Below, piece after piece: positions 27,806-43,554 of a stretch of DNA of 64,000 nt. The stretch's first letter is position 1. Each line of letters begins with the position of its first letter. The translations under genes were made by a program, and so were the position numbers. The notes beneath the pieces are model-generated. The model did not search any database and had not been told where the DNA came from. It saw only the letters and a program-made list of their open reading frames with translations. The stretch comes from Planctomycetota bacterium (lineage in GTDB: Bacteria > Planctomycetota > Brocadiia > Brocadiales > Brocadiaceae). Where the stretch lies: the NCBI GenBank assembly GCA_016873165.1, contig VGXV01000002.1, positions 1 to 64,000 of the forward strand, in the 5' to 3' direction.

Positions 27806-30097
27806 ATGATTTCCATTGGCAACCTGAGAAAAATACATATCGGAATGTTTGAGAGCGAAAAAGTTGTCTTTTATCTTATGAGCTTTTTTGCGTGTGCGTG
27901 TGCATTCTGTTTTATTTTTATGGCGGGATGTTATTTGAATATCCACTACCAGCTTTGGATATTCTGGGGGCTTGTTGGTTTTATTATCATTGCATCGAAA
28001 ATCGAAGTATTTAAACGCCCTCCCTTACGAATCCTGTTTATTCTGATCATAGTGTTTATTACACTGAGATACCTTCTTTGGCGTACTTTCCAGAGTTTAA
28101 TATATACAGGACCTATAGATTATGTAGCGACCATATTGCTTTATCTTGCAGAGGCATACGCAGTTACTATTCATTTTTTCGGTTTATTTGTCAATGTATG
28201 GCCTCTCAACCACAAGATAGCGCCGTTGCCTGCCGACCCCCGATTCTATCCCACAGTAGATATTTTTATTCCCACATATAGCGAGCCTGAGGATGTTATC
28301 AGAACCACAGCCCTCTCGTGCACGCAGATTGATTACCCGAAGGACAAATTTACCGTTTATATACTGGATGACGGCGGCACTGTCGCAAAAAGGAATCATC
28401 CTGAAAAGGGAATGGATGCATGGAACAGGTACTATTCCTTAAAAAGGATGGCGAAGGAACTGGGAGTCCGTTATATTACCCGGCAGCAAAATATCCATGC
28501 CAAGGCGGGGAATCTGAATCATGCCTTGCAGCATACCAACGCGGAACTGGTCCTTGTGCTGGATTGCGACCATGTGCCGACAAGAGATATTCTGCGGAAC
28601 ACTGTGGGATGGTTTTTAAGAGATGAGAAGCTTTTTCTTGTGCAGACGCCCCATTTTTTTATTAATCCTGACCCTTTTGAAAAAAATCTTGCAATATTCG
28701 GCGACGCTCCAAGCGAGAATGAAATGTTTTATCACAGCATTCATCATGGCCTTGATTTCTGGAATGCCACATATTTTTGCGGTTCTGCCGCTGTTTTGCG
28801 AAGAAAATATCTAATGGAAGTGGGGGGCATTGCCGGTGAAACCATAACGGAAGATGCGGAAACAACCGTTGCTTTACATAGCAAGGGCTATAACAGTGTG
28901 TATGTCGACAGGCCGATGGTATGCGGATTATCGCCGGAAAGTTTTGACGATATGCTTTTGCAGAGAAGCCGCTGGGCGCAGGGGATGATACAGATTTTTA
29001 TTCTGAAGAACCCGTTATTTGCGAAAGGGATGAAGTTGTATCAGCGTCTTTGCTATATGAGCGCTTCCCTGTTCTGGTTTTTCGGTTTTTCCCGGTTTAT
29101 TTTTTATATCGTTCCCGCGGCCTTTTTATTGTTTGGGCTGAAGGTTTATCATGCATCGTTTACAGAGACAATGGCATATGCATTACCCCATGTTGTGGGG
29201 TGTATTATCGTAACGGAATTTCTCCATGGCAAATTCAGATGGCCGTTTTTTTCCGAAATATATGAAAGCGTGTTGTCCATATTCCTTCTTCCTGTGATAT
29301 ATTCCGTTATCAGGAATCCCCGGAAACCGACCTTTAAGGTTACCCCAAAAGGGACGAGTTTGGATGAAACGGTACTTACCAGGCAGGCAATACCCTTTCT
29401 TCTTATGGTAATTACCATTGTCGCGTGTGTTCCTATGGCGGTTATAAAGTGGATTCAGTATCCATTATTCAGGGATATTATTCTTATTACGTTATCGTGG
29501 ACGATATTTAATCTCTTTATTGCTATGGCATCTCTGGGGGCATTTGTAGAGAGGAGACAGGTACGCCGTCACCATCGTATGTGGGCAAGGGGCAAGGTCA
29601 ATGTATATTTTCCGCGTATGAGGTCGACTGTGCAGGGGGAAATAATGGATATTTCCTATTCCGGAATGGGCGTGCAGTTAAAAACGCCGTTTCAGATAAA
29701 ACCGGAAGAACATATTGTATTGAACGTCAGGGATATATATGGGGAAAAGTACGAATTTGAAGCAAGGGTATTCAGACAGATAAAAAAGAAAGACGAAGTT
29801 TTTTGCGGATGTGATTTTGCTGCAAAGGAAAAAGCAATAAAATTGCGATTGATAAAATATGTGTATGGCGATAGCCAGAGGTGGGAAGATTTTTTACAGA
29901 AGCGGTTTAAGCGCGCAAGCCCATGGGTTATTTTTTACTTTATAATACGGATGGGGACAAAGGGAAGCAAAGATTGTGTTTTGCTTTCGTCAAAGTTATT
30001 CTATCGAATGATGAAAAAGTCTCTTTTTGCAATGTATACTGGATTACAATCCATGTGGCCGAGAACAATGAAAGGTGAAGGATTGCGCGCAAAATGA
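27806..30097 (+). CDS. bcsA: Cellulose synthase catalytic subunit BcsA with PilZ domain
   Basis: 763 residues. An inner-membrane processive GT2 enzyme polymerising UDP-glucose into beta-1,4-glucan and extruding it. Four N-terminal membrane helices precede the GT domain with VDIFIPTYSEPEDV, LDDGG, the DCD metal motif (LVLDCDHVP), TED (348-350) and QRSRW (386-390). Further helices follow, then a PilZ domain with RxxxR (Arg587, Arg591) and DxSxxG (Asp615, Ser617, Gly620), the residues that bind c-di-GMP, all intact. It is therefore expected to be c-di-GMP activated. ATG 27806 has no strong ribosome-binding site, and Met14 is an alternative. It is followed by bcsB after 564 bases of repeats, a larger gap than usual in bcs operons. 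Confidence 0.96.
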   Translation: MISIGNLRKIHIGMFESEKVVFYLMSFFACACAFCFIFMAGCYLNIHYQLWIFWGLVGFIIIASKIEVFKRPPLRILFILIIVFITLRYLLWRTFQSLIYTGPIDYVATILLYLAEAYAVTIHFFGLFVNVWPLNHKIAPLPADPRFYPTVDIFIPTYSEPEDVIRTTALSCTQIDYPKDKFTVYILDDGGTVAKRNHPEKGMDAWNRYYSLKRMAKELGVRYITRQQNIHAKAGNLNHALQHTNAELVLVLDCDHVPTRDILRNTVGWFLRDEKLFLVQTPHFFINPDPFEKNLAIFGDAPSENEMFYHSIHHGLDFWNATYFCGSAAVLRRKYLMEVGGIAGETITEDAETTVALHSKGYNSVYVDRPMVCGLSPESFDDMLLQRSRWAQGMIQIFILKNPLFAKGMKLYQRLCYMSASLFWFFGFSRFIFYIVPAAFLLFGLKVYHASFTETMAYALPHVVGCIIVTEFLHGKFRWPFFSEIYESVLSIFLLPVIYSVIRNPRKPTFKVTPKGTSLDETVLTRQAIPFLLMVITIVACVPMAVIKWIQYPLFRDIILITLSWTIFNLFIAMASLGAFVERRQVRRHHRMWARGKVNVYFPRMRSTVQGEIMDISYSGMGVQLKTPFQIKPEEHIVLNVRDIYGEKYEFEARVFRQIKKKDEVFCGCDFAAKEKAIKLRLIKYVYGDSQRWEDFLQKRFKRASPWVIFYFIIRMGTKGSKDCVLLSSKLFYRMMKKSLFAMYTGLQSMWPRTMKGEGLRAK

Positions 30098-30556: not shown

Positions 30557-30669
30557 TAATGAGAAATTTCAATCTTTGTAGGGGCTGAAGACTTTGTCGT
30601 GAGCTCAGTCGAACGATTTTCAACCACTACGTTGAAATGTTTTATCCCAAAAAGTTGCCGGATGCCTGA
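30557..30669 (+). mobile_element. Modular MITE-like element at the 5' end of bcsB
   Basis: The left end carries AATTTCAATCTTTGTA (30,565-30,580), shared with 18,817. The right end AAAAGTTGCCGGATGCCTGA (30,650-30,669) matches the end of the 52,473 copy at 18 of 20 positions. The interior has GTAGGGGCTGAAGA and TTTTCAACCACTAC arms interrupted by CTTTGTCGTGAGCTCAGTC-type sequence. The ATG inside the right end is the likely bcsB start codon. Confidence 0.55.
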
Positions 30670-32814
30670 TTTTAAATTGAAAAAATCATTATTTTGTATA
30701 GCAGTCATCTTTTGTTTAGCAAGCATGGCGCATGCGGCAGTGTTGGAGGTGCCTTTATATAAACTTACTCCCGCGAAAACCATCGATTTAAAATGTATCA
30801 GCGCCGAATACACAATTCCGCTCAGTGTGCCGGAGCGATGGGAAATTGAAAAAACGGTCATGCGTTTTAAGTATGTGAACTCTTCTTCTCTGCTGGAAAA
30901 CAAATCTACCCTTGTCGTGAAAGCAAACGGGTATCCGATTGCGCAAATCAAGCTGAGTCCCGTTGTTCCTGAGGGGGAGGTAAAAGTGGCTATTCCTGCA
31001 ATTTTGCTTGATCCGGGGTATAACAATATCAGTTTTGCCGTTTCGCAGCATTATACCGATGAGTGTGAAGACCCGTGTGCTCCCGACCTCTGGACGACAA
31101 TTAAAGTTGACGAATCATTTTTACGCGTGGAATACAGCTTAAAACCGGTTCCTTTACAATTATCGGCGATTCCCGAGTATATATTTGATCCGAAAATATT
31201 TCCTCATGGAAAGGTTAATTTTATTGTGGACGGCCTTACTTCCGAGGAACTGGTCAATTATGCGGGTATCGTCGCATCCGGGATTGCGCTAAGATTCGAT
31301 TACCGGCAGGTATTTTTCACACTGAGTAAAGATATCAAACCCAATGTGGATAATATCCTGTTGGGAAAAAAGGAATTTACAGACGATTTTTTGAGAAAAA
31401 ATGGCATAGAGTTGAATGAAAATTCCGGCCCCCTTTTAAAAATAACGCATCTTCCATTGGAAAAAACCGTACGTGATCCCTATCATGCCTTAATAACTAT
31501 TTCAGGAGAGGATATTGACCAGGTGAAATTGGCAGCCGAAACATTTGCCATAATGTCTTTTCCTTTTCCTGACAGTGACGAAATGAAGCCGGTCAAATTC
31601 GAACTTCCTGATGTTTCACAATACAGCGGCAGGCTTATGCTGGTTCCCGATAAAAAATATACCTTTAAAACCCTTAACCTTGAGACATATACTTTTAAAG
31701 GAATAACCCCCAATCCTGCGGAAATCACCTTTCGGCTGCCCCCCGATTTTTTGGTGAAACAAAATCAGTATGCAAATATTTCATTGCACTTTGCGTATGG
31801 CGCCGGGATGAGGAATTTTTCGGTGGTAAATGTATTGCTGAACGGAAAACATATAAGGGCGGTTCGCCTTGACAGTGAGTATGGGAATATTGTGGAAGGG
31901 TATAATGTCTCAATCCCCACCCATTTATTCCGGGCAGGAACCAATGTTATTACCTTTGCGCCGGTCTTAACGCCTACGATGGGCAGCAATTGCGAACCTA
32001 TACCGATAGACAATCTTTTCTTTACCCTGTTTGATAATTCCACGTTTATTTTTCCTCCTATGCCCCATCTGGTGGAATTGCCGAAACTGGAGTTGTTTTT
32101 TTTAAATGGTTTTCCTTTTACCCGCTGGCCTGATGGGCACGAATCGCTCATCTTTATAGCCCAGCCAACCTCCAGTGCAATTGCATCCGCCTTTAACATC
32201 ATGGGGTCAATTACTCAAAAAAACGGATTTCCCCTTTTGGAAATGAAGATTGGCTTTCGCAAGCCTGATGAATGGGATGGTGAAATTATTATTTTGGGCA
32301 GTATCGAAAGCATTCCGGACGATTTAAAAGAACTGGCTCCTTTGAAACTTACAAAAAAGACGTCCGTTCCTTATCCTGTGGTGAAAAGCTGGAGGGAGAA
32401 AAAACCATTGCTTTCAGCGGGCAAATAAGCGATTTTGGAAAAGGGAAAGGCGCTGTCATGCAATTTAAATCTCCGTATAAAGTAGGACGGTCAATATTGA
32501 TGATCACCGCGTTATCTCCGAAGGAGTTAAATACTTTCAGCAAGATGCTTTTAGAACCTGCGGTGGAAGGCGCGTGCAAGGGCGATCTGGCATTAGTTGA
32601 TCTTACCTCCGCTCCTGATTACAAAGTATTTGCCTTTGATATAGGGAAAAAGTATTTTAGCGGCAAGGGTGGAAAGATATCCAGAATGAAGGCCTATTTA
32701 TACTCCATCACCAAGTATTATGTTTACGTTTTAATTTTTGTCCTTCTGTTTTTGGGAATAACTATTTTCTATCTGCTAAATCGCTTTAGAAAGAGGAGGT
32801 TGAAAAGTGCATAA
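30662..32814 (+). pseudogene. bcsB: Cellulose synthase subunit BcsB, split by a frameshift
   Basis: BcsB is the periplasmic, membrane-anchored partner of BcsA that guides the emerging glucan. The 5' frame (30,662-32,428) has a signal peptide (to AHA near residue 25) and BcsB-type repeats of jelly-roll and flavodoxin-like domains (VPLYKLTPAKTIDLK, RFDYRQVFFTLSK). The conserved C-terminal end, including SPYKVGRSILMITALS and the final membrane helix, lies in a different frame (32,458-32,814). Both frames join at an A6 run (32,399-32,404). One more A would give a continuous protein of about 717 residues reading REKKTIAFSGQISDFGKG, which is close to the usual length. It could be a sequencing error, slippage, phase variation or a real mutation. 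An alternative start is TTG 30677. It overlaps bcsZ by eight bases. Confidence 0.85.
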
Positions 32815-33838
32815 GATATTGGGTGGTGTTGCGGTCTGTTTGCTGCTGGCGATGGGTATGTGCAAAATAGTGCATGGGAATCAACCTTCTGTATGGGAAG
32901 AGTTTAAGTTGAACTTTGTCAATAAGGATGGCAGGGTGATTGATTGTTACAACGGATACGTCAGTCATTCGGAAGGACAAGGGTACGGAATGTTATTGGC
33001 GGTGAAATATAATGATAAAGCCGCCTTTGACAAACTTTGGCAGTGGACGCAAGATAATATTGCGGTAAGAAATGATGATCTGTTTGCATGGAAATGGGGA
33101 GAGCGAACAAGCGGCGTTTGGGGGGTGGTCGATTATAATAATGCAACGGATGGGGATATTTTAATCGCATCGGCTCTGCTTAAGGCTGATGAACAATGGC
33201 CAAACAATAATTATAAGAATACGGCGTTAAGGATAATTAAAAGTGTGCGGGAAAATCTTGCGATAGAGTGGAACGGATGTCAACTCCTTTTGCCCGGTCA
33301 TCACGGATTTATCAGGGAGAATCGTTTTATAGTAAATCCTTCTTATATTATTTTTTCAGCATATCGCGCATTTGCGAAGATTGACGACGAAGCTTTCTGG
33401 CAAAAGGTTTACAAAGACAGCATGTTGCTCGTTGCGAAGTCGTGTTTTGGGACGCTTAAAATGCCTGCAGATTGGGTGATGCTGGATGGGAAAGACGTAT
33501 CAATTTGTTATGAAAGAAAACCCTATTTTGGTTACGAAGCAATCCGTGTATTTCTCTATCTTTCATGGGAAGAAAATCCTCAATTTCCCGAGGGACTGGA
33601 GAAGATGCTGGACATATATAACAAACTTGGTTTTATCCCCCTCTGGGTAGATCTCGCAAACGATAGCATTTCGTTACAAAATTCTCCTCCTGGTTTTTAT
33701 GCCGTATTTGCAAGGGCAGCAGAAAGAATCGGAGAAAAAATGTTAAGTAAAAAATTGTTTAAAGAAGCAGGCGAGAGGCTGATGTATGATAAAAAAGATT
33801 ATTATTCCTTTTGCTTATACCTTCTGGCAGAAGAATGA
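32807..33838 (+). CDS. bcsZ: BcsZ, GH8 family periplasmic endo-beta-1,4-glucanase
   Basis: 343 residues, signal peptide to about residue 24 (CKIVHG). GH8 features are SEGQGYGMLLA with the proton-donor Glu56, DLFAWKWGER, NNATDGDILIA, and PADWVMLDG. In BcsZ the catalytic base is an Asp in the YDAIR motif (Asp243 in the E. coli enzyme, from memory); here the motif reads YEAIR, with Glu244. That substitution may weaken or alter activity. BcsZ trims nascent cellulose in the periplasm and affects secretion. GAGGAGGTT (32,794) is a good ribosome-binding site and the gene overlaps the end of bcsB, so the two are translationally linked. Confidence 0.93.
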   Translation: MHKILGGVAVCLLLAMGMCKIVHGNQPSVWEEFKLNFVNKDGRVIDCYNGYVSHSEGQGYGMLLAVKYNDKAAFDKLWQWTQDNIAVRNDDLFAWKWGERTSGVWGVVDYNNATDGDILIASALLKADEQWPNNNYKNTALRIIKSVRENLAIEWNGCQLLLPGHHGFIRENRFIVNPSYIIFSAYRAFAKIDDEAFWQKVYKDSMLLVAKSCFGTLKMPADWVMLDGKDVSICYERKPYFGYEAIRVFLYLSWEENPQFPEGLEKMLDIYNKLGFIPLWVDLANDSISLQNSPPGFYAVFARAAERIGEKMLSKKLFKEAGERLMYDKKDYYSFCLYLLAEE

Positions 33839-33868
33839 ATGTGTTTTCACATTTATGATTATTGAAGG

Positions 33869-34133
33869 AAATTTTCTTGATAAATTTAATTAAGTAGACA
33901 AAAGTAGGGTGGATTAAGCGACAGCGAATCCACCTTTCCTGTGCATATTATTGGTGGATTCGGCGTAAAAAACAACGCCTTAATCCACCCTACCTTTAAT
34001 TGATAAGCAACGGTTAATCAAGAAGGTATGGGTATTAGACACAGCAATCATGGAGAAAGTAAGCTTGGCAGTAAAAAATATACTGGATGTGTAAGTATTG
34101 TGGAAAATTTTCTTGATAAATTTAATTAAGTAG
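33869..34133. repeat. 29-bp direct repeat flanking a 207-base segment
   Basis: AAATTTTCTTGATAAATTTA followed by ATTAAGTAG occurs at 33,869-33,897 and again at 34,105-34,133. In one frame both copies read NFLDKFN and a stop, so the repeat may derive from a coding end. The 90-bp inverted repeat at 33,905 lies between them. Confidence 0.6.
33905..33994. repeat. 90-bp element with 17-bp inverted ends
   Basis: GTAGGGTGGATTAAGCG and CGCCTTAATCCACCCTAC are inverted repeats differing by one inserted base. The interior has a second, weaker GGTGGATT/AATCCACC pair. It shares its arm with the hairpin at 30,187. It is non-coding. Confidence 0.65.
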
Positions 34134-34250
34134 TGTAAAAGACGCAGGTTAGAGTTGTTTTTTGGGGGGAGAATAGCATTTATTTGCTGTTATGGAGGGG
34201 AATAACCAATAAATCCCAAATCCCAGTATCCAAATAACAAATAAATTCCA

Positions 34251-34615
34251 GTGAATAAAAACCAAAACTTCAAACAATACGATCTTGAGAAAGGGCGTTT
34301 CAATTTGCAAAGAATGTTGCTCTTTACATAAAACAATTATCCAAAAATGTTTCAAACATAGAATATGGAAAGCAAGTTATTAGAGCTTCCGGGTCGGTTG
34401 GCGCCAATTATATTGAAGCGAATGAAGCATTAAGTAAGAAAGATTTTATTATGAGGATAAAGATAAGCCGGAAAGAAGCAAAAGAATCTGCTTACTGGCT
34501 GAGATTAATTATAGAAACAAATGAAGAAGAATCTAAAAATAGAGGAATGGTACTCCACAAAGAAGCTATTGAGTTAAAGAAAATATTTTCTTCTATTCTT
34601 GTAAAGTCGCAATAG
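34251..34615 (+). pseudogene. Four-helix bundle (23S rRNA intervening-sequence type) protein gene, frameshifted
   Basis: The first frame from GTG 34251 reads MNKNQNFKQYDLEK, then shifts. The second frame continues FAKNVALYIKQL, then YGKQVIRASGSVGANYIEAN, FIMRIKISRKEAKESAYWLR and a C-terminal end at TAG 34,613. This is the complete layout of the roughly 120-residue four-helix bundle proteins once found as S23/IVS proteins. Insertion of one base in GAGAAAGGGCG (about 34,288) restores the frame. Both flanks carry the AT-rich AAATCCCAAAT/ATTTGGTATTTGG type sequence, in roughly inverted orientation, that often borders these genes. It is probably a recently inactivated mobile cassette. The remainder of 33,839-34,696 is repeats. 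Confidence 0.65.
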
Positions 34616-34696
34616 CAAAGTTTGGATTTTGGGAATTTGTGATTTATTTGGTATTTGGAGATTGTAATTTGTAAATTTGCCTGAACAATTAATAAC

Positions 34697-37600
34697 ATGA
34701 AAGTAGTCTATAGCTTTATAACGGTATTGTTTATCTTTTTGCTGATAATCGGTGACACGGTATATTCAGCCGGCAGTTCCGGTGCATTACGTTTGTATAC
34801 CATTCAAGTCGCACATATCACTGACCCGGAAGAAGCAAAGAGACGCGCGGAGCAGATATCGCACCTCATATTTCTTCCCGTTCGCATAAAAAAAACCATT
34901 CAGGATTATTTTGTTATTCTTGCAGGAGAAGCGGAAAGATATTCAGACCTCTCGGAGTATGAAGACATTCTCAGGAAGAAGGGGTATATTCAGGCATCTA
35001 TAGTGAATGATTCATACGGCGCGATTCCTGCTGTTATGGAAATAGTCCCAGCGCAAACCGACGCAAGGTTGGCGACAGTAAAAAAGAAACCGGCGAAGGC
35101 AAAAGGCTTCACCTCTTTCTATATGATACAGGTCGCCCATATAACAAGCAGGGTAGAAGCCAAAAAACGCGCGAAACACCTTTTTCATATTACCCGTCTC
35201 CGCACGCGGATAAAAGAAAAGGATCAATATTATATTCTTCTTGCAGGCGGGGCAGAGAGGAGGTCTGATTTGCTGGATGATATGAGAATTATCCGGAAGA
35301 ACGGATATCCTCAGGCAGTGATTATCAATAATCATCGTTTAGAGCCGCCGGAAACCTTAGAGGTTTTTTCTTCTATAGAGGTAGCGAAGGAAAAGCAGTC
35401 GAACCTGTTGTCGCTTGTCCGGAAAACTCATTACGGAGCGGATGATTACACTATGCTTGAGACCGATGTGATGCCTCATTTGATGGAAAGAACGGAAACT
35501 ACTGAGGAAGCCGGAAACGGTGAGAAAAATGATGATATCTCGCAGGCATGGACCTATTATCGGGAAAAACAATTTGATAATGCTCTTGAATTATGCGACA
35601 GGGTTTTATTTTTCGACCCTTTCGATATGGATGTCCTCTATTTGAAGTTGAATATTCTTGTGCAAACCCGGCAATTTATGGAAGCGAGGATGATTTTGGC
35701 CAATGTGTCCGGAGAAAGAAATTCATTGAAGCTGTTGCAGCTTCGCGCAGATCTCGAGTGTTGGCTGGAAAATTATGATGGCGCTATTGTTTTGTATCAG
35801 GATTTAATCAGAAAATGGCCGGAAAACGGTGATATCTGGTTCGGGTACCTGAAAGCCCTTTCATCGGCACAGGAGTGGTCATTGCTGTCAAAAGCGATAA
35901 AAGAAGGCATTGACAAGATAGAAATGTCCGACGAAAGGCTGGATTTCATGGTTGAGATGTATTTGTCTCTGGAAGAGACGGAAAAAGCGCTTTGTATATG
36001 GAAGGGAATGGACACTGCTTCAAATCATTGGGGCAGAATTCTTTTTGCCATAGTGAACAAATTGACTGCCGGTAAGAAACCGGAAATAGCGGTTCAGGTT
36101 CTGGAGCAGGCATTGTCAATGGACGAAACGAATGCCCAAGTTGCCGGTGCATTATCCCTTAAATACGCTTCGATGGATATGCCGGAGAAAGGGATGGAGG
36201 TCTTGCGTCAATTCAAAAAAGCGCCGGAAACGGGAAACACGATGAATGTCGCAAAAGCGCAATTATTTTCTCTTATAAATAATTATGAAATAGCATTGTC
36301 TCTGCTACAGACAGTCGAACACGGTGATGACAACAATTACAAGGCACAACTTATTGAACTGGAATGCTATTATGGTTTGGAGGATTATGAAACGCTTATT
36401 GCAAAATCATCTTCATTATTACAGAAATGCGGTGAGGATACGTCTTTCCCGAAATCAAGGGTTTTGGCATTGCGTATACTGGCGCTGATAAAAGCGGGGT
36501 TGCAGGCAGAGGCGGAAAGAGAGATTGGATTATTGTTTGCAACGGAGGAGAATAAATACACAGCCGCAATGCTTTCCGTTTTACTTTATGCGTATGACGG
36601 CATTGAATTATTATCGGCGATGGAAAATTCCGATTACGGTTCCGCAGTCTTTTCCTTGTCATTATTCGCTTCCAGCGGACAACTGGAAGAACATTACAAG
36701 TCTATTCAGGTTCTCGGAAAAGCCCTGAAGGAGCCTTCAGATACGCCACACCCTCAGTTTTTTGAGGAGGAATTAGCGTCCGACAGGTCAAAGGTGATTG
36801 CCCTCCGCATGCTCCATGCATGGAAGATTGCGGATGAATTATCCGGACATACTAATGAAGACATAAAGGCGCAATTGGCAATGGCTGAATACCGAGCGGG
36901 GAATTTTCAGAGAGCGTTGGAGTTGTATGAGCAATTATATAGTATACGGAAAGAGGCTGCATATAAGCTTGGAATGATGGAATGCTTTCTGGCAATGAAC
37001 AATAAGAAGAAAGCATTGGAAGTGTGTGATGAAATACAGCTATCAGGTTTGCCCCGGCAGGAAGTATCCCGCTATCTGGAAAATATGGTGAAATTGGAAA
37101 TTGAAAGAGAAGCATTTTATACAATAATCTCCGGATTGCCGGAAGATTTGACAGGAAATACACGTATAACAGCGGCAATTGTAATAGCAAATATTCAATA
37201 CGGCGATTACTTTCTGGCAAATAAGACGCTAACGGAATATCTCTTAAATAAGCAGTCATCCATTTCCCTCTTTCAATTAATTATGGATATGATAGGAGAT
37301 TTTGACAAAGGGATGAAGGGGAAGTACTACCAATTTGTGAAAAATTGGTTGAATTTCGCAGTGGATTTATATCCGGAGAATATGAGTTTACCGTATCAAT
37401 ATGCACAATTGCTGGCTATGCACGGTGAGGATGAATTGGCACAGAAGCAATTTTTAGCAATGTGGGAATCAAATTTCAATGATACACGGGTGATGCGATG
37501 GATGGGAAGATTAAATAGCCGGGCACAACAATTTGAGACTTCGTTGAAATGGTATGACTTGTATGTGAAAATCAGACCATCGGACATTATTGTCCGCCGG

Positions 37601-38212
37601 GAAAGAGACCACGTTCACCATTGGGTAGTATGTAAGAAACAATCTGATATGATATATGCAATCGTCAGTCAGTGTATGCCGGGAGATTACAACAGATATT
37701 GGGAGTGGCAGGCAAAGAGGAGTGATTTAAACGCAAAACAGCAGTCAGTATTTCTGCAGGATACATTTGCCACGCATTATCAGAAAAGACGCCATCCCCT
37801 TGCTCAGTTGAAACAGATTGCTTTTTATGATGGTTCCGGCAGTGGACGGAAAACTATCAATCAGGAGTTGTCTGAAGATAATCCTGGTGATGGCGGATAT
37901 TCCTTTGATCAAAATGCGGGAAAATGGAAACGAAATCAATCGTTTCATTTCATGACTTTGAATGAAAGTTTTGAAGAGAAACTGAAGAATTATGGAGAAG
38001 AAAGGATATTACAGTATCCGGGAGATGATGGGAAAGGGGAGAAATTTGAGATTATTGGAAATAGCCGGATGAATGATACTTTTAATTTATTATTGCGGTG
38101 CGATAAAGAAGGAATACTCAATGGGTTTTATGCGGCGCCTTCGTATGAGTTAAAAAATATTTCAACAAAACGAGGGAGAACTTTCCTGGGGAGTATGTTG
38201 TGTGAAGGATGA
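34697..38212 (+). CDS. Secreted SPOR-TPR protein (BcsC-like, lacking the barrel)
   Basis: 1171 residues with a signal peptide (1-24). Two SPOR-like modules (about 33-105 and 147-218, each YxIQVAHIT...EAKxRA) would bind peptidoglycan. From about 280 to 1000 a long array of TPR-like helical repeats follows, as in cellulose-export protein BcsC. It is clearly paralogous to the next gene along most of its length (for example WLENYDGAIVLYQDLIRKWP against WAKNYERAIEKYQKLIQQFP). After YWEWQAKRSD (about residue 1010) the similarity fades, and the last 160 residues are hydrophilic with no barrel strands and no terminal aromatic residue. It is probably periplasmic. It might be a decaying duplicate or a dedicated periplasmic scaffold for the glucan. 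Confidence 0.75.
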   Translation: MKVVYSFITVLFIFLLIIGDTVYSAGSSGALRLYTIQVAHITDPEEAKRRAEQISHLIFLPVRIKKTIQDYFVILAGEAERYSDLSEYEDILRKKGYIQASIVNDSYGAIPAVMEIVPAQTDARLATVKKKPAKAKGFTSFYMIQVAHITSRVEAKKRAKHLFHITRLRTRIKEKDQYYILLAGGAERRSDLLDDMRIIRKNGYPQAVIINNHRLEPPETLEVFSSIEVAKEKQSNLLSLVRKTHYGADDYTMLETDVMPHLMERTETTEEAGNGEKNDDISQAWTYYREKQFDNALELCDRVLFFDPFDMDVLYLKLNILVQTRQFMEARMILANVSGERNSLKLLQLRADLECWLENYDGAIVLYQDLIRKWPENGDIWFGYLKALSSAQEWSLLSKAIKEGIDKIEMSDERLDFMVEMYLSLEETEKALCIWKGMDTASNHWGRILFAIVNKLTAGKKPEIAVQVLEQALSMDETNAQVAGALSLKYASMDMPEKGMEVLRQFKKAPETGNTMNVAKAQLFSLINNYEIALSLLQTVEHGDDNNYKAQLIELECYYGLEDYETLIAKSSSLLQKCGEDTSFPKSRVLALRILALIKAGLQAEAEREIGLLFATEENKYTAAMLSVLLYAYDGIELLSAMENSDYGSAVFSLSLFASSGQLEEHYKSIQVLGKALKEPSDTPHPQFFEEELASDRSKVIALRMLHAWKIADELSGHTNEDIKAQLAMAEYRAGNFQRALELYEQLYSIRKEAAYKLGMMECFLAMNNKKKALEVCDEIQLSGLPRQEVSRYLENMVKLEIEREAFYTIISGLPEDLTGNTRITAAIVIANIQYGDYFLANKTLTEYLLNKQSSISLFQLIMDMIGDFDKGMKGKYYQFVKNWLNFAVDLYPENMSLPYQYAQLLAMHGEDELAQKQFLAMWESNFNDTRVMRWMGRLNSRAQQFETSLKWYDLYVKIRPSDIIVRRERDHVHHWVVCKKQSDMIYAIVSQCMPGDYNRYWEWQAKRSDLNAKQQSVFLQDTFATHYQKRRHPLAQLKQIAFYDGSGSGRKTINQELSEDNPGDGGYSFDQNAGKWKRNQSFHFMTLNESFEEKLKNYGEERILQYPGDDGKGEKFEIIGNSRMNDTFNLLLRCDKEGILNGFYAAPSYELKNISTKRGRTFLGSMLCEG

Positions 38213-38268
38213 GATGATTATTGTAAATATTTATAATTCCTCAATCGCAGTATCCGTAGCATCCGTAG

Positions 38269-38295
38269 GTTGGGTTGAGTGAGGCGAAACCCAAC
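38269..38295. repeat. Hairpin GTTGGGTT/AACCCAAC-type repeat
   Basis: GTTGGGTTGAGTGAGGCGAA plus ACCCAAC has an 8-bp stem and an 11-base loop. It lies between the two SPOR-TPR genes, in a 211-base gap that is otherwise featureless. Confidence 0.45.
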
Positions 38296-38423
38296 TGAGT
38301 ATTTTCCACAAACAAGCCGTACATTTTTGTTATTCACTCCTTGCCGCTTTTCTTCTCTGCTCATAACTTAACCACAAAGTTTTTCCTTGGCAGGATTTGG
38401 GGAATATTTTCTAAAAACATTAA

Positions 38424-41400
38424 ATGAGAGAGGGTATGAGAAAATATTATTTGCGAATGTTGGCCGTGGTTTGCAGCTTTTTTCCGGTGTTGATGTTCCT
38501 TCATTCCCCCGCCACTATACGAATAAATTGGGCAGAGGATTATCTTCGTCATGAAAGTGTTTTTAATGAAGGTTATTACATAAATTATGAACGGGTTGAG
38601 GGATTGAATAATTACCTTCTGGCGGAAAATACTTCTCAGGATTTGGTCGCTATGTTGGGAATGTTCGGCGGTAATGCGATAGCAAAACAGGTGAAAATGT
38701 TCACTATTGAAGTGGCACGTTTTGCCGATTTGGAGGAAGCGAAGCAACAAACCATGCGGGTTTCTCGAATGGTGCCCTTCCCTGTATGGTTAGAACAGAC
38801 TGATCATACGTATAGCATCCGTGCCGGCTATTCCGCGAGACAAGATGATTTATTACCGTATATAGGGAAAATTAAAGAAAGTGGCTATCCTGAAGCATCG
38901 TTAAGTGTTGTTTCTTTCGGAGAGAGAAAGGTGGTTTTGGAGGTGTCTCCTGCTTTGGAAATAAAGAGGAAAGAGGGAGAACATTTTGTGGAAATTAAAA
39001 GAAAAGAACAGGTTGGCACGGGGAGGGTGGATATTTCTGATATAGAAGATCAGTTGATTGAAAGCGAAGAAAAATCTAAGGAATTTTTTCAAACATACGA
39101 AGGAGAGTATTATATCGGCAAGGCATGGCGGAGTTATCATGAGGGTAATTTTGAGCAGGCAATAGAGTTTTTTAATTTTGCAGGATCGTTTCCTGAAACC
39201 GCGCAGGACGCCAAACTCGGCGTGGCATATTGTTATATTGAACAAGGCAAAAGGAATGAGGCGCTTTCTTTGTTTGACGAATTGGTGGCAGAAAAATTCA
39301 AGATAAAAGAGATAGCAAATGTGCTCGTGAAAATACAATGTCTTGATAAAGCCATTGAGTTGTGCAACAAGGTCTTGTTTACCGATCCGTTTAATACGGA
39401 TTTTCTGATAATGAAAATAAACATTCTTGTGCAAAGAAAGAATTTTGACGCGGTGCGGTTAATTCTGGCAAGTATTCCGAAAGACAAAAATACCCTGGAA
39501 TTGTCACTGCTTGCGGCTGATATTGAGGCGTGGGCGAAAAACTATGAAAGGGCAATCGAAAAATACCAGAAATTGATTCAACAATTTCCTGAAGAAAGCG
39601 ATGTATGGCTGGGTTATATAAAGGCGGTGACATGGGCGAAGAACTGGCTGTTGTTATCTGACATTTTGCCGCAAGGGATAGAGAAGGTTAAAATGACGGA
39701 TGAGAATCGCCCTTTTTTTGTGGAAGCCTATCTTGGACTGGGCGAGATAGAAAATGCCCTGGAAGTGTGGGATGAAATGGACGTTAATGCGAAAGACTGG
39801 AGCAAGTCCCTCTTAACAATAGTTGATAAATATATGGCACGGGGAAAACTGGAAGAAGCGACAAATTTATTAAAAAAAGTTTTGGCGACCAAGAAAAAGG
39901 ACATACACCTTACGGAGCGACTGGCAATAAATTATTTGTATTCAGAGATGCCTGAAAAAGGGTTTGAAGTAATTGGCCAGTTTCAACGTACACCGGAGAC
40001 GCAGCTCGGTATTGACCTTACCAGAGCGGAACTTTTTGCTTTGCTAAAAAATTATGAAGAATCTTTGTCCCTCCTCCAAACAATTGACGTATCAAAAGAA
40101 GAAGGAAACCGTGCTGAAATGGTTGAATTAGAGTGTTATTATGGATTGGAGAAAGATGAACAACTGGTGGAAAAGGCAGCGGCTTATATACAAAAATTGC
40201 CCGAAGACGATGTAATTGATAAAGCGAAGATGCTGACCATGTCTATTCTCTCCCGCATGAGAATTGGCCAGTATAAGGAATCGGAGAAAGAAATTGAAAT
40301 ATTGGAAGGTATAGTGCCTGATGCCTACGATCCGGCAATTCTCAGGGTTTTATTGAAAAATGCCGGCAGGCAGTTGACAGAGCATGATGAATCGATCAGG
40401 ACTTTAGGTGAAAAGTTAGCAGGATATTCAAAAGAGGCGGCAATGGTGCGACCGCAACTTCTCGCAGATGAAATGTTATATGATCAGTCAAAGATTCTGG
40501 CAATTCGTATTCTCGACGCATGGAGGATTGCCGATGAATTGGAAAAACATAAAAATACAGAGATAAAATACCAGCGGGCGCGGGCTGAATATAAGGCAGG
40601 CAATTATCAGCAATCTTTTGATATATATAAAGAACTCTATGAAGAGGAGAAAATCGATCAGTATAAAATGGGAATGGCGGAGTGCATGCTGGATTATGGT
40701 GATAATAACAGAGCAAGCGAGTTGTTTGATGAAATACAAATGCTGAGTTTGCCGCTGAAAGATATTTCCCGCTATTTTGAAAGTATGATCCGGTTGCAGA
40801 AGGATGAAGAATTTTTTAATGAGAAATTTTCAGAGATACCTGAAAGCATTACTGCTGCTGTACCGATGAAAACATTAGCTATTATTGCAAACTTAATGTC
40901 TGAAGATTTTGCTTCTGCAGATAATAAAATAAAGCACTATATCACAGAAAATCAGGAGGATATTTCCGTTTTTCGTTTAATTATGGCAAGAATGGGATAT
41001 TTTGAAAAAGGATTAATGGGAAGGTGCTACGAATTTGTAAAAAATTGGTATTGTACAGCAATAGAAAAATTTCCGGAAGATACCGGAATTCGCTATGAAT
41101 ACGCAAAGCATCTTGCTTCTCATAGAGTATATGAACCGGCAATAGAACAGCATTTGGTTTTGTCTGAACTTGCTCCGGATGATTATAGAGTTGTGCGGTG
41201 GCTTGCACGTCTTTTTAGCTGGACGAAACAATTTGAAAATGGGTTGTCATGGTATAGCAAATATACAGAATTAAGACCGGGAGACATTGTGGTGCAGCAT
41301 GAAATCGTGAGGGTATACGGCTGGGCGCTGATGTTTGATGAAGCGAACAAGGCGTATGAAAAACTTTGTGCGGACTTTCCTGATAATTATGAACTCTATT

Positions 41401-42518
41401 GGGAATGGCAGGCAAAGAGAAATAACTGGTTAAGACGAAAGCGAACGGCGGTTGTATATTATGAAAAATTAGTGGAGAGCCATCCTGAAGATGCTGAACT
41501 CGTGTTTGATCTGGGGCAGTTATACTCGCAACTCAATTTCAGTGAAAAATCGGAAGATACCTACAGAAAACTACTTGTTTATGAGCCTGGCCACAATCGC
41601 GCAACATTTGCCGCGGATTCCGAAAAATGGCGAAGGATGCAATCTTTGGGGCTGAAACAGACGTATATCCACCAGGAAGGGACGGGAGATAGCTTTGGCA
41701 ATTTTGAAATAACACGGTTTAGAACGGATGTGAATTATATTCCCGCAAGGTTTTCTGAAGCAACGGATATTTCATTGAGCATGGGGCATACCATATTTAA
41801 TTTCACGGAATATACCGGATCAATGGCAGAGCATTTTTCGCTTAAGGGAAGTAAAAATTTCCGGAATGGAATTAAAACGTATTTAAATGGTGAATTGTCG
41901 ACGTATACGGAAAACAATAAAGAAACGGTTCAATTTGAAACGGGCATACATTATCAAATTGCTGAAATGTTTGACACAACGGCATTCATGGGGAGAGAGG
42001 ATGTTCTGGAGAATTTTATTACGTTAAGTAATCACAGGGCGCGCTACTTTACCGGAGGTCGTTGTATGTGGGAGGTGGACGAACATCTTGAAACATATGC
42101 CCAGGCGAAGCAGTACTGGTATAATGACGAAAATGAGGGATTTGAGTATGATGTGTCGGTAGGGTATAAATTTTTTGTGTATCCGAGGATTTTGAAATTA
42201 TCTGTGGGAATATTTGGGTTTGATGTAGATCAAAATGTCAGTGAGTACTGGTCTCCAAACGCATACAAAAAGTATTCCGCGACCCTTAGCTGGCGCCATT
42301 ATCTGGGAAAAGAACATTACACCGGCGCACCTGAACTTTTTTATGAACTTGCTATGAAACAGAGTATAGATAGCGACAGCATCGATTTTGCCGAACCTTC
42401 ACTTGTCCTGGGATGGGATAACAAAAGACGCATGAATGCCGGGTTGGAAGTAAAGCCTATGAGGTCGATTGTGTATGATGAGGAAAGGATACATTTCTTT
42501 TTTAACGTGCGGTTTTAA
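38424..42518 (+). CDS. SPOR-TPR-beta-barrel outer-membrane export protein (BcsC-like)
   Basis: 1364 residues. A hydrophobic N-terminus (signal, about 10-30) is followed by one SPOR-like module (about 90-158, MFTIEVARFADLEEAKQQT), a long TPR solenoid (about 225-1060) and a C-terminal barrel (about 1075-1364). The barrel has alternating amphipathic strands, ends FFFNVRF, and its terminal Phe is typical of BAM-assembled outer-membrane proteins. This is the BcsC plan (TPR scaffold plus porin), with the SPOR module as an unusual addition. It should carry the glucan across the outer membrane. ATG 38424 lacks a ribosome-binding site; ATG 38436 (MRKYYLRM) is possible. It ends one base before the convergent cyclase gene. 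Confidence 0.82.
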   Translation: MREGMRKYYLRMLAVVCSFFPVLMFLHSPATIRINWAEDYLRHESVFNEGYYINYERVEGLNNYLLAENTSQDLVAMLGMFGGNAIAKQVKMFTIEVARFADLEEAKQQTMRVSRMVPFPVWLEQTDHTYSIRAGYSARQDDLLPYIGKIKESGYPEASLSVVSFGERKVVLEVSPALEIKRKEGEHFVEIKRKEQVGTGRVDISDIEDQLIESEEKSKEFFQTYEGEYYIGKAWRSYHEGNFEQAIEFFNFAGSFPETAQDAKLGVAYCYIEQGKRNEALSLFDELVAEKFKIKEIANVLVKIQCLDKAIELCNKVLFTDPFNTDFLIMKINILVQRKNFDAVRLILASIPKDKNTLELSLLAADIEAWAKNYERAIEKYQKLIQQFPEESDVWLGYIKAVTWAKNWLLLSDILPQGIEKVKMTDENRPFFVEAYLGLGEIENALEVWDEMDVNAKDWSKSLLTIVDKYMARGKLEEATNLLKKVLATKKKDIHLTERLAINYLYSEMPEKGFEVIGQFQRTPETQLGIDLTRAELFALLKNYEESLSLLQTIDVSKEEGNRAEMVELECYYGLEKDEQLVEKAAAYIQKLPEDDVIDKAKMLTMSILSRMRIGQYKESEKEIEILEGIVPDAYDPAILRVLLKNAGRQLTEHDESIRTLGEKLAGYSKEAAMVRPQLLADEMLYDQSKILAIRILDAWRIADELEKHKNTEIKYQRARAEYKAGNYQQSFDIYKELYEEEKIDQYKMGMAECMLDYGDNNRASELFDEIQMLSLPLKDISRYFESMIRLQKDEEFFNEKFSEIPESITAAVPMKTLAIIANLMSEDFASADNKIKHYITENQEDISVFRLIMARMGYFEKGLMGRCYEFVKNWYCTAIEKFPEDTGIRYEYAKHLASHRVYEPAIEQHLVLSELAPDDYRVVRWLARLFSWTKQFENGLSWYSKYTELRPGDIVVQHEIVRVYGWALMFDEANKAYEKLCADFPDNYELYWEWQAKRNNWLRRKRTAVVYYEKLVESHPEDAELVFDLGQLYSQLNFSEKSEDTYRKLLVYEPGHNRATFAADSEKWRRMQSLGLKQTYIHQEGTGDSFGNFEITRFRTDVNYIPARFSEATDISLSMGHTIFNFTEYTGSMAEHFSLKGSKNFRNGIKTYLNGELSTYTENNKETVQFETGIHYQIAEMFDTTAFMGREDVLENFITLSNHRARYFTGGRCMWEVDEHLETYAQAKQYWYNDENEGFEYDVSVGYKFFVYPRILKLSVGIFGFDVDQNVSEYWSPNAYKKYSATLSWRHYLGKEHYTGAPELFYELAMKQSIDSDSIDFAEPSLVLGWDNKRRMNAGLEVKPMRSIVYDEERIHFFFNVRF

Positions 42519-42519
42519 A

Positions 42520-43554
42520 TCATTCTTCGCTATCAAATATAATAGTAACGGGATGTTCTAATAATTTTTTCACACTCTCTTCAGAAATGTCTGCGGAGAG
42601 AGAACGTTGTTCCGCTTTTGAAGCGGTTGCTGATATGAACGGATTTGGCACGACCCCACCCAGCATGAGCAGATAGGTAATCATGAGCGGGATTGAAACC
42701 ATCATTGAGACTTTTACGACAGGAAAGCGTTTTTTTACAACAACTTTTTCTTCTTTTGCGCCGAATTTATCCAGTTCGATTTCTTTCTCATCCCAGAATG
42801 CCTTATAAAGTCTGAATTCCCCCTTTTTCCCTTTTAATGTGGTGGATTTTATATAGCGGATATATATTTCTGCCTTATCTGTTAACGCGTTGTATGAATC
42901 TTCCGAAAGATAGATTTCTCCGGGATTTGACGCGGATTGGATTCTCGATGCTACATTCACCACATCGCCAAAAATGTCATTTTCTTCCACTACGCCTTGT
43001 CCGGTATGCAACCCTATACAGACAAGGAGGAGTGTCTTCGGTTTTTTTTCCACATTGTATTTGTCAAAGCCGATTTGCGCTTCGACTGCGGCGCGAACTG
43101 CCTTTTGAGCGTCTTCGAAGTAGGATAGTGTTCCGTCACCCATGGTTTTTACCAATACCCCGTCATGCTTTTTGATAATGGGAAAGAGAATGTCATTATG
43201 TTGTTTCATGATAGTTCTGCTTGCGATATCACCTTCCGCATCGGCAATGGCAGTTGAGCCTTTGAGGTCGGTAAACATTACCGTCATGGTTTTGGTGAAT
43301 TTTTCCTTAAGAAGGCTTTCCAGGTATTCCCTTTGTTCGATGAGTTTTTCTATGTCAGTTGGTTGGGTGGAGAAGTTTTTGTTGATTTCGTTCTTTTGGT
43401 GCGTTTCTTCCTTTGCCATTTTCTCCTCATGGTCATATTCCTGTTTTTCGGACGTTTGAAGACTTTCTTTTTGTTCTGAATAGTTTTCTTTTTTTTCGTC
43501 TGTTTTTTCAGATGAATTGAAAGAATCATCGGATTTTATATCAGAAATAGACAT
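42520..43554 (-). CDS. Class III adenylate/guanylate cyclase with C-terminal membrane helix
   Basis: 344 residues. A charged, low-complexity N-terminal region (1-70) and a short coiled coil lead into a class III cyclase domain: VMFTDLKGST with metal Asp96, KTMGDGTLSYF with Asp140, and DVVNVASRI with the transition-state Asn/Arg pair. A single membrane helix lies near 282-304, leaving about 40 residues outside. The topology, catalytic domain before the anchor, is the reverse of the common sensor-first layout. The nucleotide product cannot be decided from sequence alone. AAGGAG precedes ATG 43554. It converges on the BcsC-like gene with a one-base gap and diverges from argG. Confidence 0.88.
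   Translation of the reverse strand: MSISDIKSDDSFNSSEKTDEKKENYSEQKESLQTSEKQEYDHEEKMAKEETHQKNEINKNFSTQPTDIEKLIEQREYLESLLKEKFTKTMTVMFTDLKGSTAIADAEGDIASRTIMKQHNDILFPIIKKHDGVLVKTMGDGTLSYFEDAQKAVRAAVEAQIGFDKYNVEKKPKTLLLVCIGLHTGQGVVEENDIFGDVVNVASRIQSASNPGEIYLSEDSYNALTDKAEIYIRYIKSTTLKGKKGEFRLYKAFWDEKEIELDKFGAKEEKVVVKKRFPVVKVSMMVSIPLMITYLLMLGGVVPNPFISATASKAEQRSLSADISEESVKKLLEHPVTIIFDSEE

Follow-up and report, generated by a model that had tools for sequence, protein, structure and literature searches.

A pore-less paralogue of BcsC in the cellulose synthase cluster of Kuenenia-type anammox bacteria: a probable periplasmic scaffold

Introduction

The bcsA–bcsB–bcsZ cluster of a Kuenenia-type anammox bacterium ends in a pair of paralogous genes, the first of which (gene 1; positions 34697–38212, + strand, 1171 amino acids) encodes two SPOR domains, a TPR solenoid and an eroded half barrel, and the second of which (gene 2; 38424–42518, + strand, 1364 amino acids) encodes a BcsC-type exporter. 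We propose, with a probability of roughly 0.6, that gene 1 is an old BcsC paralogue without a pore and that its product is a periplasmic scaffold of the Bcs machine, tethered through its SPOR domains. The original prediction, made from the window (the whole stretch of DNA analysed here, 64 000 nucleotides), had recognized the two open reading frames as paralogues and had left two readings of the first: decay of a duplicate, or specialization of an exporter into a periplasmic adaptor. The adaptor or scaffold reading is favoured because the short form is found throughout the genus (three of three species) with the same end point, and because its dN/dS intervals lie below 1; of the decay reading, the erosion of the tail has proved real.

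In Escherichia coli, the TPRs of BcsC bind BcsB and a putative cello-oligosaccharide (PMC11379886). In type III systems BcsC is often replaced by BcsK, which serves in periplasmic scaffolding only (PMC11470070). A literature search returned no paper joining cellulose synthase, anammox and Kuenenia, and nothing relevant on Kuenenia for either cellulose synthase or the export of exopolysaccharide. The window genome (G000; 4.05 Mb in 191 contigs) was compared with those of two other Kuenenia species, G001 and G002 (n = 3 species), and with G010, a 100% complete genome used as the outgroup with a type-A BcsC. Among named relatives, gene 1 was found only in Candidatus Kuenenia hertensis YC6 (SOET01000001.1), in which the positions match those of G002.

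The gene cluster

The five genes all lie on the + strand in the order bcsA (27806), bcsB (30599), bcsZ (32807), gene 1 (34697) and gene 2 (38424). The bcsA gene (27806–30097) encodes a cellulose synthase catalytic subunit with a PilZ domain (TIGR03030, 828.8 bits against a cut-off of 699.1; PilZ match) and bcsZ (32807–33838) a GH8 endoglucanase (PF01270, 205 bits). The bcsB open reading frame, as read, encodes 609 amino acids (30599–32428; PF03170, 350 bits); DNA alignment with G002 reveals one base fewer near 32387, ahead of an A-run, and the remainder of the gene, including the C-terminal membrane helix, is open in another frame to about 32803. This break is either a sequencing error or a very recent frameshift.

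The spacer between bcsZ and gene 1 is 0.6–0.9 kb long and contains repeats in the window and in G002; in G001 gene 1 starts only 3 nt past the bcsZ stop (L030, about 9071), forming a tight operon. The window spacers at 33838–34696 and 38210–38423 contain palindromic repeats (GTAGGGTGGATTAAGCG..., GTAGGTTGGGTTGAGTG...) and, apparently, part of a gene for a four-helix-bundle (23S intervening) protein. A gene for a guanylate/adenylate cyclase-domain protein (42520–43554, − strand) is convergent with gene 2, and a similar open reading frame adjoins bcsC in G002 and G010.

The tandem arrangement of genes 1 and 2 is preserved in two of the three species (G000 and G002). It fails in G001, where bcsC lies about 260 kb from the tight bcsA–bcsB–bcsZ–gene 1 cluster (L031, 10188–14138 and 14051–15604; G001:C1:536–542 kb) and its barrel is cut after about 197 of 299 residues, beside a 518-amino-acid multicopy element, of which the genome contains at least 21 near-identical full-length copies. 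A search of the rest of G001 did not recover the last 100 or so barrel residues. G001 has no whole barrel in either paralogue, yet bcsA, bcsB, bcsZ and gene 1 are open, and this arrangement is a caution. G010 possesses a syntenic bcsA–bcsB–bcsZ–bcsC cluster without gene 1.

Elsewhere, a BcsC-type gene of G022 (L033, 5796–9412) consists of overlapping frames of 959 and 324 amino acids, apparently split by a frameshift. Other genera of the family (L032, L035, L036, L037 and L054–L057) carry a second kind of locus with a SPOR-less TPR-barrel exporter, which at several of these loci, as judged by eye, stands beside large synthase-like membrane-protein genes and a GH8-like lipoprotein.

Overall architecture

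Gene 2 (open reading frame, structure model and Foldseek) comprises one weak SPOR-like domain (38700–38894, + strand; residues 93–157), a long TPR solenoid with Pfam TPR matches and a C-terminal barrel part (41646–42515, + strand) that closes with a terminal Phe. The predicted barrel is borne out by an AlphaFold2 model, of low confidence (pLDDT 51), in which the C-terminal 290 or so residues form 16 strands. When the model was searched against the PDB with Foldseek, the only matches at E < 0.001 were to E. coli BcsC (9b8a and 9b8h), with BcsC 6tzk at 0.006. Profile comparison, suggested as a check on the pair, recovered SPOR in both proteins, although in gene 2 at 16.6 bits, under the 21-bit cut-off of PF05036; this region is 55% identical to the same region of G010. 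Pfam BcsC_C gave no match to gene 2 even at E 10, NCBIfam PRK11447 scored 19 bits (cut-off 858) and over the TPR part only, sequence searches of the PDB gave matches confined to the TPR part, and the barrel matched PF21197 (PgaA) weakly, at E 0.013 and under the curated cut-off. Gene 2 is BcsC-type by its operon company of bcsA, bcsB and bcsZ, by its architecture and by its modelled fold, not by family-model recognition.

Gene 1 (open reading frame, BLASTP, orthologues and model) opens with a hydrophobic N-terminal signal sequence without a lipobox Cys (approximately 34697–34774, + strand; read by eye, not by a predictor). Two SPOR domains follow, at 34787–35011 and 35114–35332 (+ strand), as anticipated against the single one of gene 2. 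PF05036 matches the second (residues 140–210) at 36 bits against a cut-off of 21; the first is 50% identical to it and has an alpha/beta fold in the model, and both modules are above the cut-off in G001 and G002. The two window modules resemble the SPOR of gene 2 by only 25–33%, and the pair is, on sequence identity, an internal duplication common to all three Kuenenia species. When the three genomes were searched with PF05036, SPOR matches at threshold were confined to gene 1, but the window copy was missed too, so that the sensitivity of this search is limited. A search for amidases (PF01520), meant to support the supply of the SPOR ligand, matched only in G000 and is uninformative.

The TPR solenoid (about residues 275–1010; 35519–37726, + strand) is supported by Pfam TPR matches, conserved BcsC columns and a model pLDDT of mostly 75–90. 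In the AlphaFold2 prediction for the whole window protein, both SPOR domains are folded, the solenoid is confident, and the tail (residues 993–1171, pLDDT < 50) is unstructured and forms no barrel; Foldseek with this model returned generic TPR/superhelix proteins only. The two paralogues share 33% identity over 1063 columns (BLASTP, 595 bits). The alignment covers the SPOR and TPR regions, as originally described, but YWEWQAKR is not its end: homology continues into the last TPRs and about seven strands.

The C-terminal tail

The loss of the barrel from gene 1 is confirmed, whereas the strandless hydrophilic drift said to have replaced it proves to be an eroded half barrel with a charge that is somewhat, not strikingly, higher than that of the barrel (27–31% KRDE versus 22–27%). 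A profile of the three tails is collinear with BcsC-type C-termini (hhalign probability 97.9%) and aligns to the last two TPRs and about the first seven of the 16 strands, as mapped on the gene 2 model. The degenerate counterpart of these TPRs lies at 37727–37921 and the eroded counterpart of strands ~1–7, delimited by hhalign, profile search, alignments and the gene 2 model, at 37922–38140 (both + strand). When the TPR remnant and the KWKRNQS motif are removed, the remaining barrel part scores 51.9; the best of 200 column shuffles reaches 26.1 and the reversed profile 9.4. Amphipathicity counts are uninformative on strands, even the true barrel half being barely distinct from its own shuffles. 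A search of 392 genomes from the phylum with the tail profile returned gene 1 itself and, beyond it, only BcsC-type barrels belonging to the same family; there is no Pfam match to the tail, and an unrelated acquired domain is rejected. The tail is, by these sequence comparisons, a diverged and truncated barrel rather than unrelated hydrophilic sequence. Since the barrel matches always end at position 213–215 of 237, the last 23 residues (38141–38209, + strand) are unique to gene 1; by orthologue alignment they are conserved in the three species, with a dN/dS of 0.05 between G002 and G001.

The window copy of gene 1 carries a private in-frame deletion of 60 residues at ~37952–37963, residues that are present in both the G001 and G002 orthologues. 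The counterparts of strands ~1–4 have gone with it, leaving those of only about three strands and no terminal aromatic residue. Short direct repeats (type ATCGYTT) seem, from the alignment, to flank the deletion. Neither the gene 1 protein nor the DNA 3′ of its stop codon contains, in any of the three genomes, anything similar to the second barrel half, and a barrel relic beyond the stop is rejected. A barrel concealed by a frameshift or assembly error (one appearing after frame correction would have refuted the original prediction) is rejected as well: all frames of gene 1 were read and none encodes one, and the two sister species share the frame, the stop and the C-terminus. With constraint on it relaxed, the tail continues to shorten, so that the old barrel has genuinely eroded even as the protein overall is maintained.

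Sequence conservation and phylogeny

Orthologues of gene 1 are present in both other Kuenenia species (1238 amino acids in G002 and 1314 in G001) and share the C-terminus LL.EG, so that the short form and its end point are common to all three. Values of dN/dS (Nei–Gojobori, codon bootstrap) are 0.17–0.22 for the TPR region, 0.25–0.33 for SPOR and 0.26–0.50 for the tail, with every 95% interval below 1. The short form is neither unique to the window genome nor neutrally evolving, and gene 1 is, on these sequence measures, under purifying selection. It is about twice as free as gene 2 (TPR dN/dS ~0.2 versus ~0.11; gene 2 range 0.11–0.12), the corresponding values for bcsA, bcsB and bcsZ being 0.07–0.10. 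Before residue 1000 (G002 numbering), gene 1 retains 139 of 185 BcsC-conserved columns, a column being taken as kept when it is kept in G002 or G001, but retention drops to ten of 38 columns over the last TPRs and to 24 of 73 over the barrel part; judged by these columns, constraint is released at the pore end.

In a tree of the TPR regions, gene 1 falls outside gene 2 and the BcsC of G010 (support 100/100). A recent duplication confined to Kuenenia, which would unite gene 1 with the Kuenenia gene 2, is rejected (p-AU 0.0012), and recent decay is therefore unlikely. On the strength of the tree, the AU result and the absence of gene 1 from G010, the duplication seems to predate the genus, gene 1 having been lost or never kept elsewhere, although the single type-A outgroup genome and the long gene 1 branch could inflate this age through long-branch attraction.

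Discussion

In the history that we propose, the second barrel half would have disappeared from the ancestor of gene 1 before the Kuenenia species split, what remained of the barrel would have worn down, together with the last two TPRs, to the short conserved tail, and the SPOR domain would have been doubled. The protein would be exported into the periplasm through its N-terminal signal sequence, and its SPOR pair, by analogy with other members of the SPOR family, may tether it to peptidoglycan. By a second analogy, with E. coli BcsC, its TPR solenoid may dock on the BcsB crown, hold nascent glucan, or both, and the glucan would then be passed on to the true BcsC pore, the product of the neighbouring gene.

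E. coli BcsC (PDB entries 9b8a and 6tzk) resembles the present pair in its periplasmic TPR solenoid, its bcsA–bcsB–bcsZ operon and the 16-strand C-terminal barrel that is predicted for gene 2. It differs in that gene 1 has no barrel and carries two N-terminal SPOR domains, and in that the barrel of gene 2 escapes the Pfam and NCBIfam BcsC models. The best reading of gene 1 is as an independently derived analogue of the BcsK found in type III cellulose systems. Like BcsK, compared here by description, it would be a TPR scaffold of the periplasm (a location suggested by the signal sequence) that has no outer-membrane barrel and is encoded with bcsA, bcsB and bcsZ. BcsK, however, is described as replacing BcsC, whereas gene 1 is kept beside a full BcsC-type gene in G000 and G002, is derived locally, has a visible barrel relic and has doubled its SPOR domain.

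Alginate export employs a periplasmic TPR protein, AlgK, and a separate barrel, AlgE. Likened by description, this division of labour recalls the present pair, but the barrel protein here retains a TPR arm of its own. PgaA, the PNAG export porin, shares with gene 2 the combination of TPRs and a 16-strand barrel and a weak PF21197 match; that match is under the cut-off, and the synthase of the operon is BcsA rather than PgaC.

Gene 1 might instead be a regulator or decoy that throttles export by competing with BcsC over the BcsB crown or the glucan, or that retains cellulose in the periplasm or wall. A docking solenoid of the same kind without a pore would suit this role, as would the state of G001, where the true BcsC barrel is truncated beside the multicopy element while bcsA, bcsB, bcsZ and gene 1 are open; no sequence feature, however, separates a competitor from a scaffold, and we consider this explanation unlikely. 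Decay of a bcsC duplicate, barrel first and the rest to follow, could account for the eroded tail, the missing second barrel half, the further 60-residue deletion in the window species and a dN/dS above those of gene 2 and bcsA, bcsB and bcsZ. It does not sit well with a frame that is open and an end point that is identical in three species, with dN/dS intervals below 1 even in the tail, with the retention of 75% of BcsC-conserved TPR columns or with a duplication older than the genus; the gain and retention of a second SPOR domain would also be unexpected in a dying gene. This explanation is already strongly weakened and appears quite improbable.

On the evidence of homology to about seven strands in the long forms (G001 and G002), the tail might still insert into the outer membrane, with oligomerization or BcsC completing the partial barrel, but this is very improbable given that the window copy has counterparts of only about three strands and no terminal aromatic residue, that the modelled tail is unstructured and that 24 of 73 barrel-conserved columns are kept even in the long forms. 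Acquisition of a proteobacterial BcsK by transfer, to which the barrel-less layout of a periplasmic TPR scaffold would conform (PMC11470070), is scarcely credible, as the tree places gene 1 with the type-A BcsC of its family and apart from the type-B exporters, the tail is a homologue of the type-A BcsC barrel, the GC content of the gene is not atypical and import from plasmids is rejected by the lack of any plasmid match.

If gene 1 is indeed a SPOR-tethered periplasmic scaffold, a TPR-barrel exporter would have become a barrel-less, BcsK-like scaffold, with the stages of this change visible in three species. A bolder conjecture, to which we give little credence, is that Kuenenia operates a two-arm cellulose machine in which a peptidoglycan-anchored pore-less paralogue works with the exporter (or, in G001, instead of a broken pore), some of the glucan being kept in the periplasm or wall and not secreted. 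The finding suggests that cellulose-type secretion in anammox bacteria may involve an additional arm bound to the wall.
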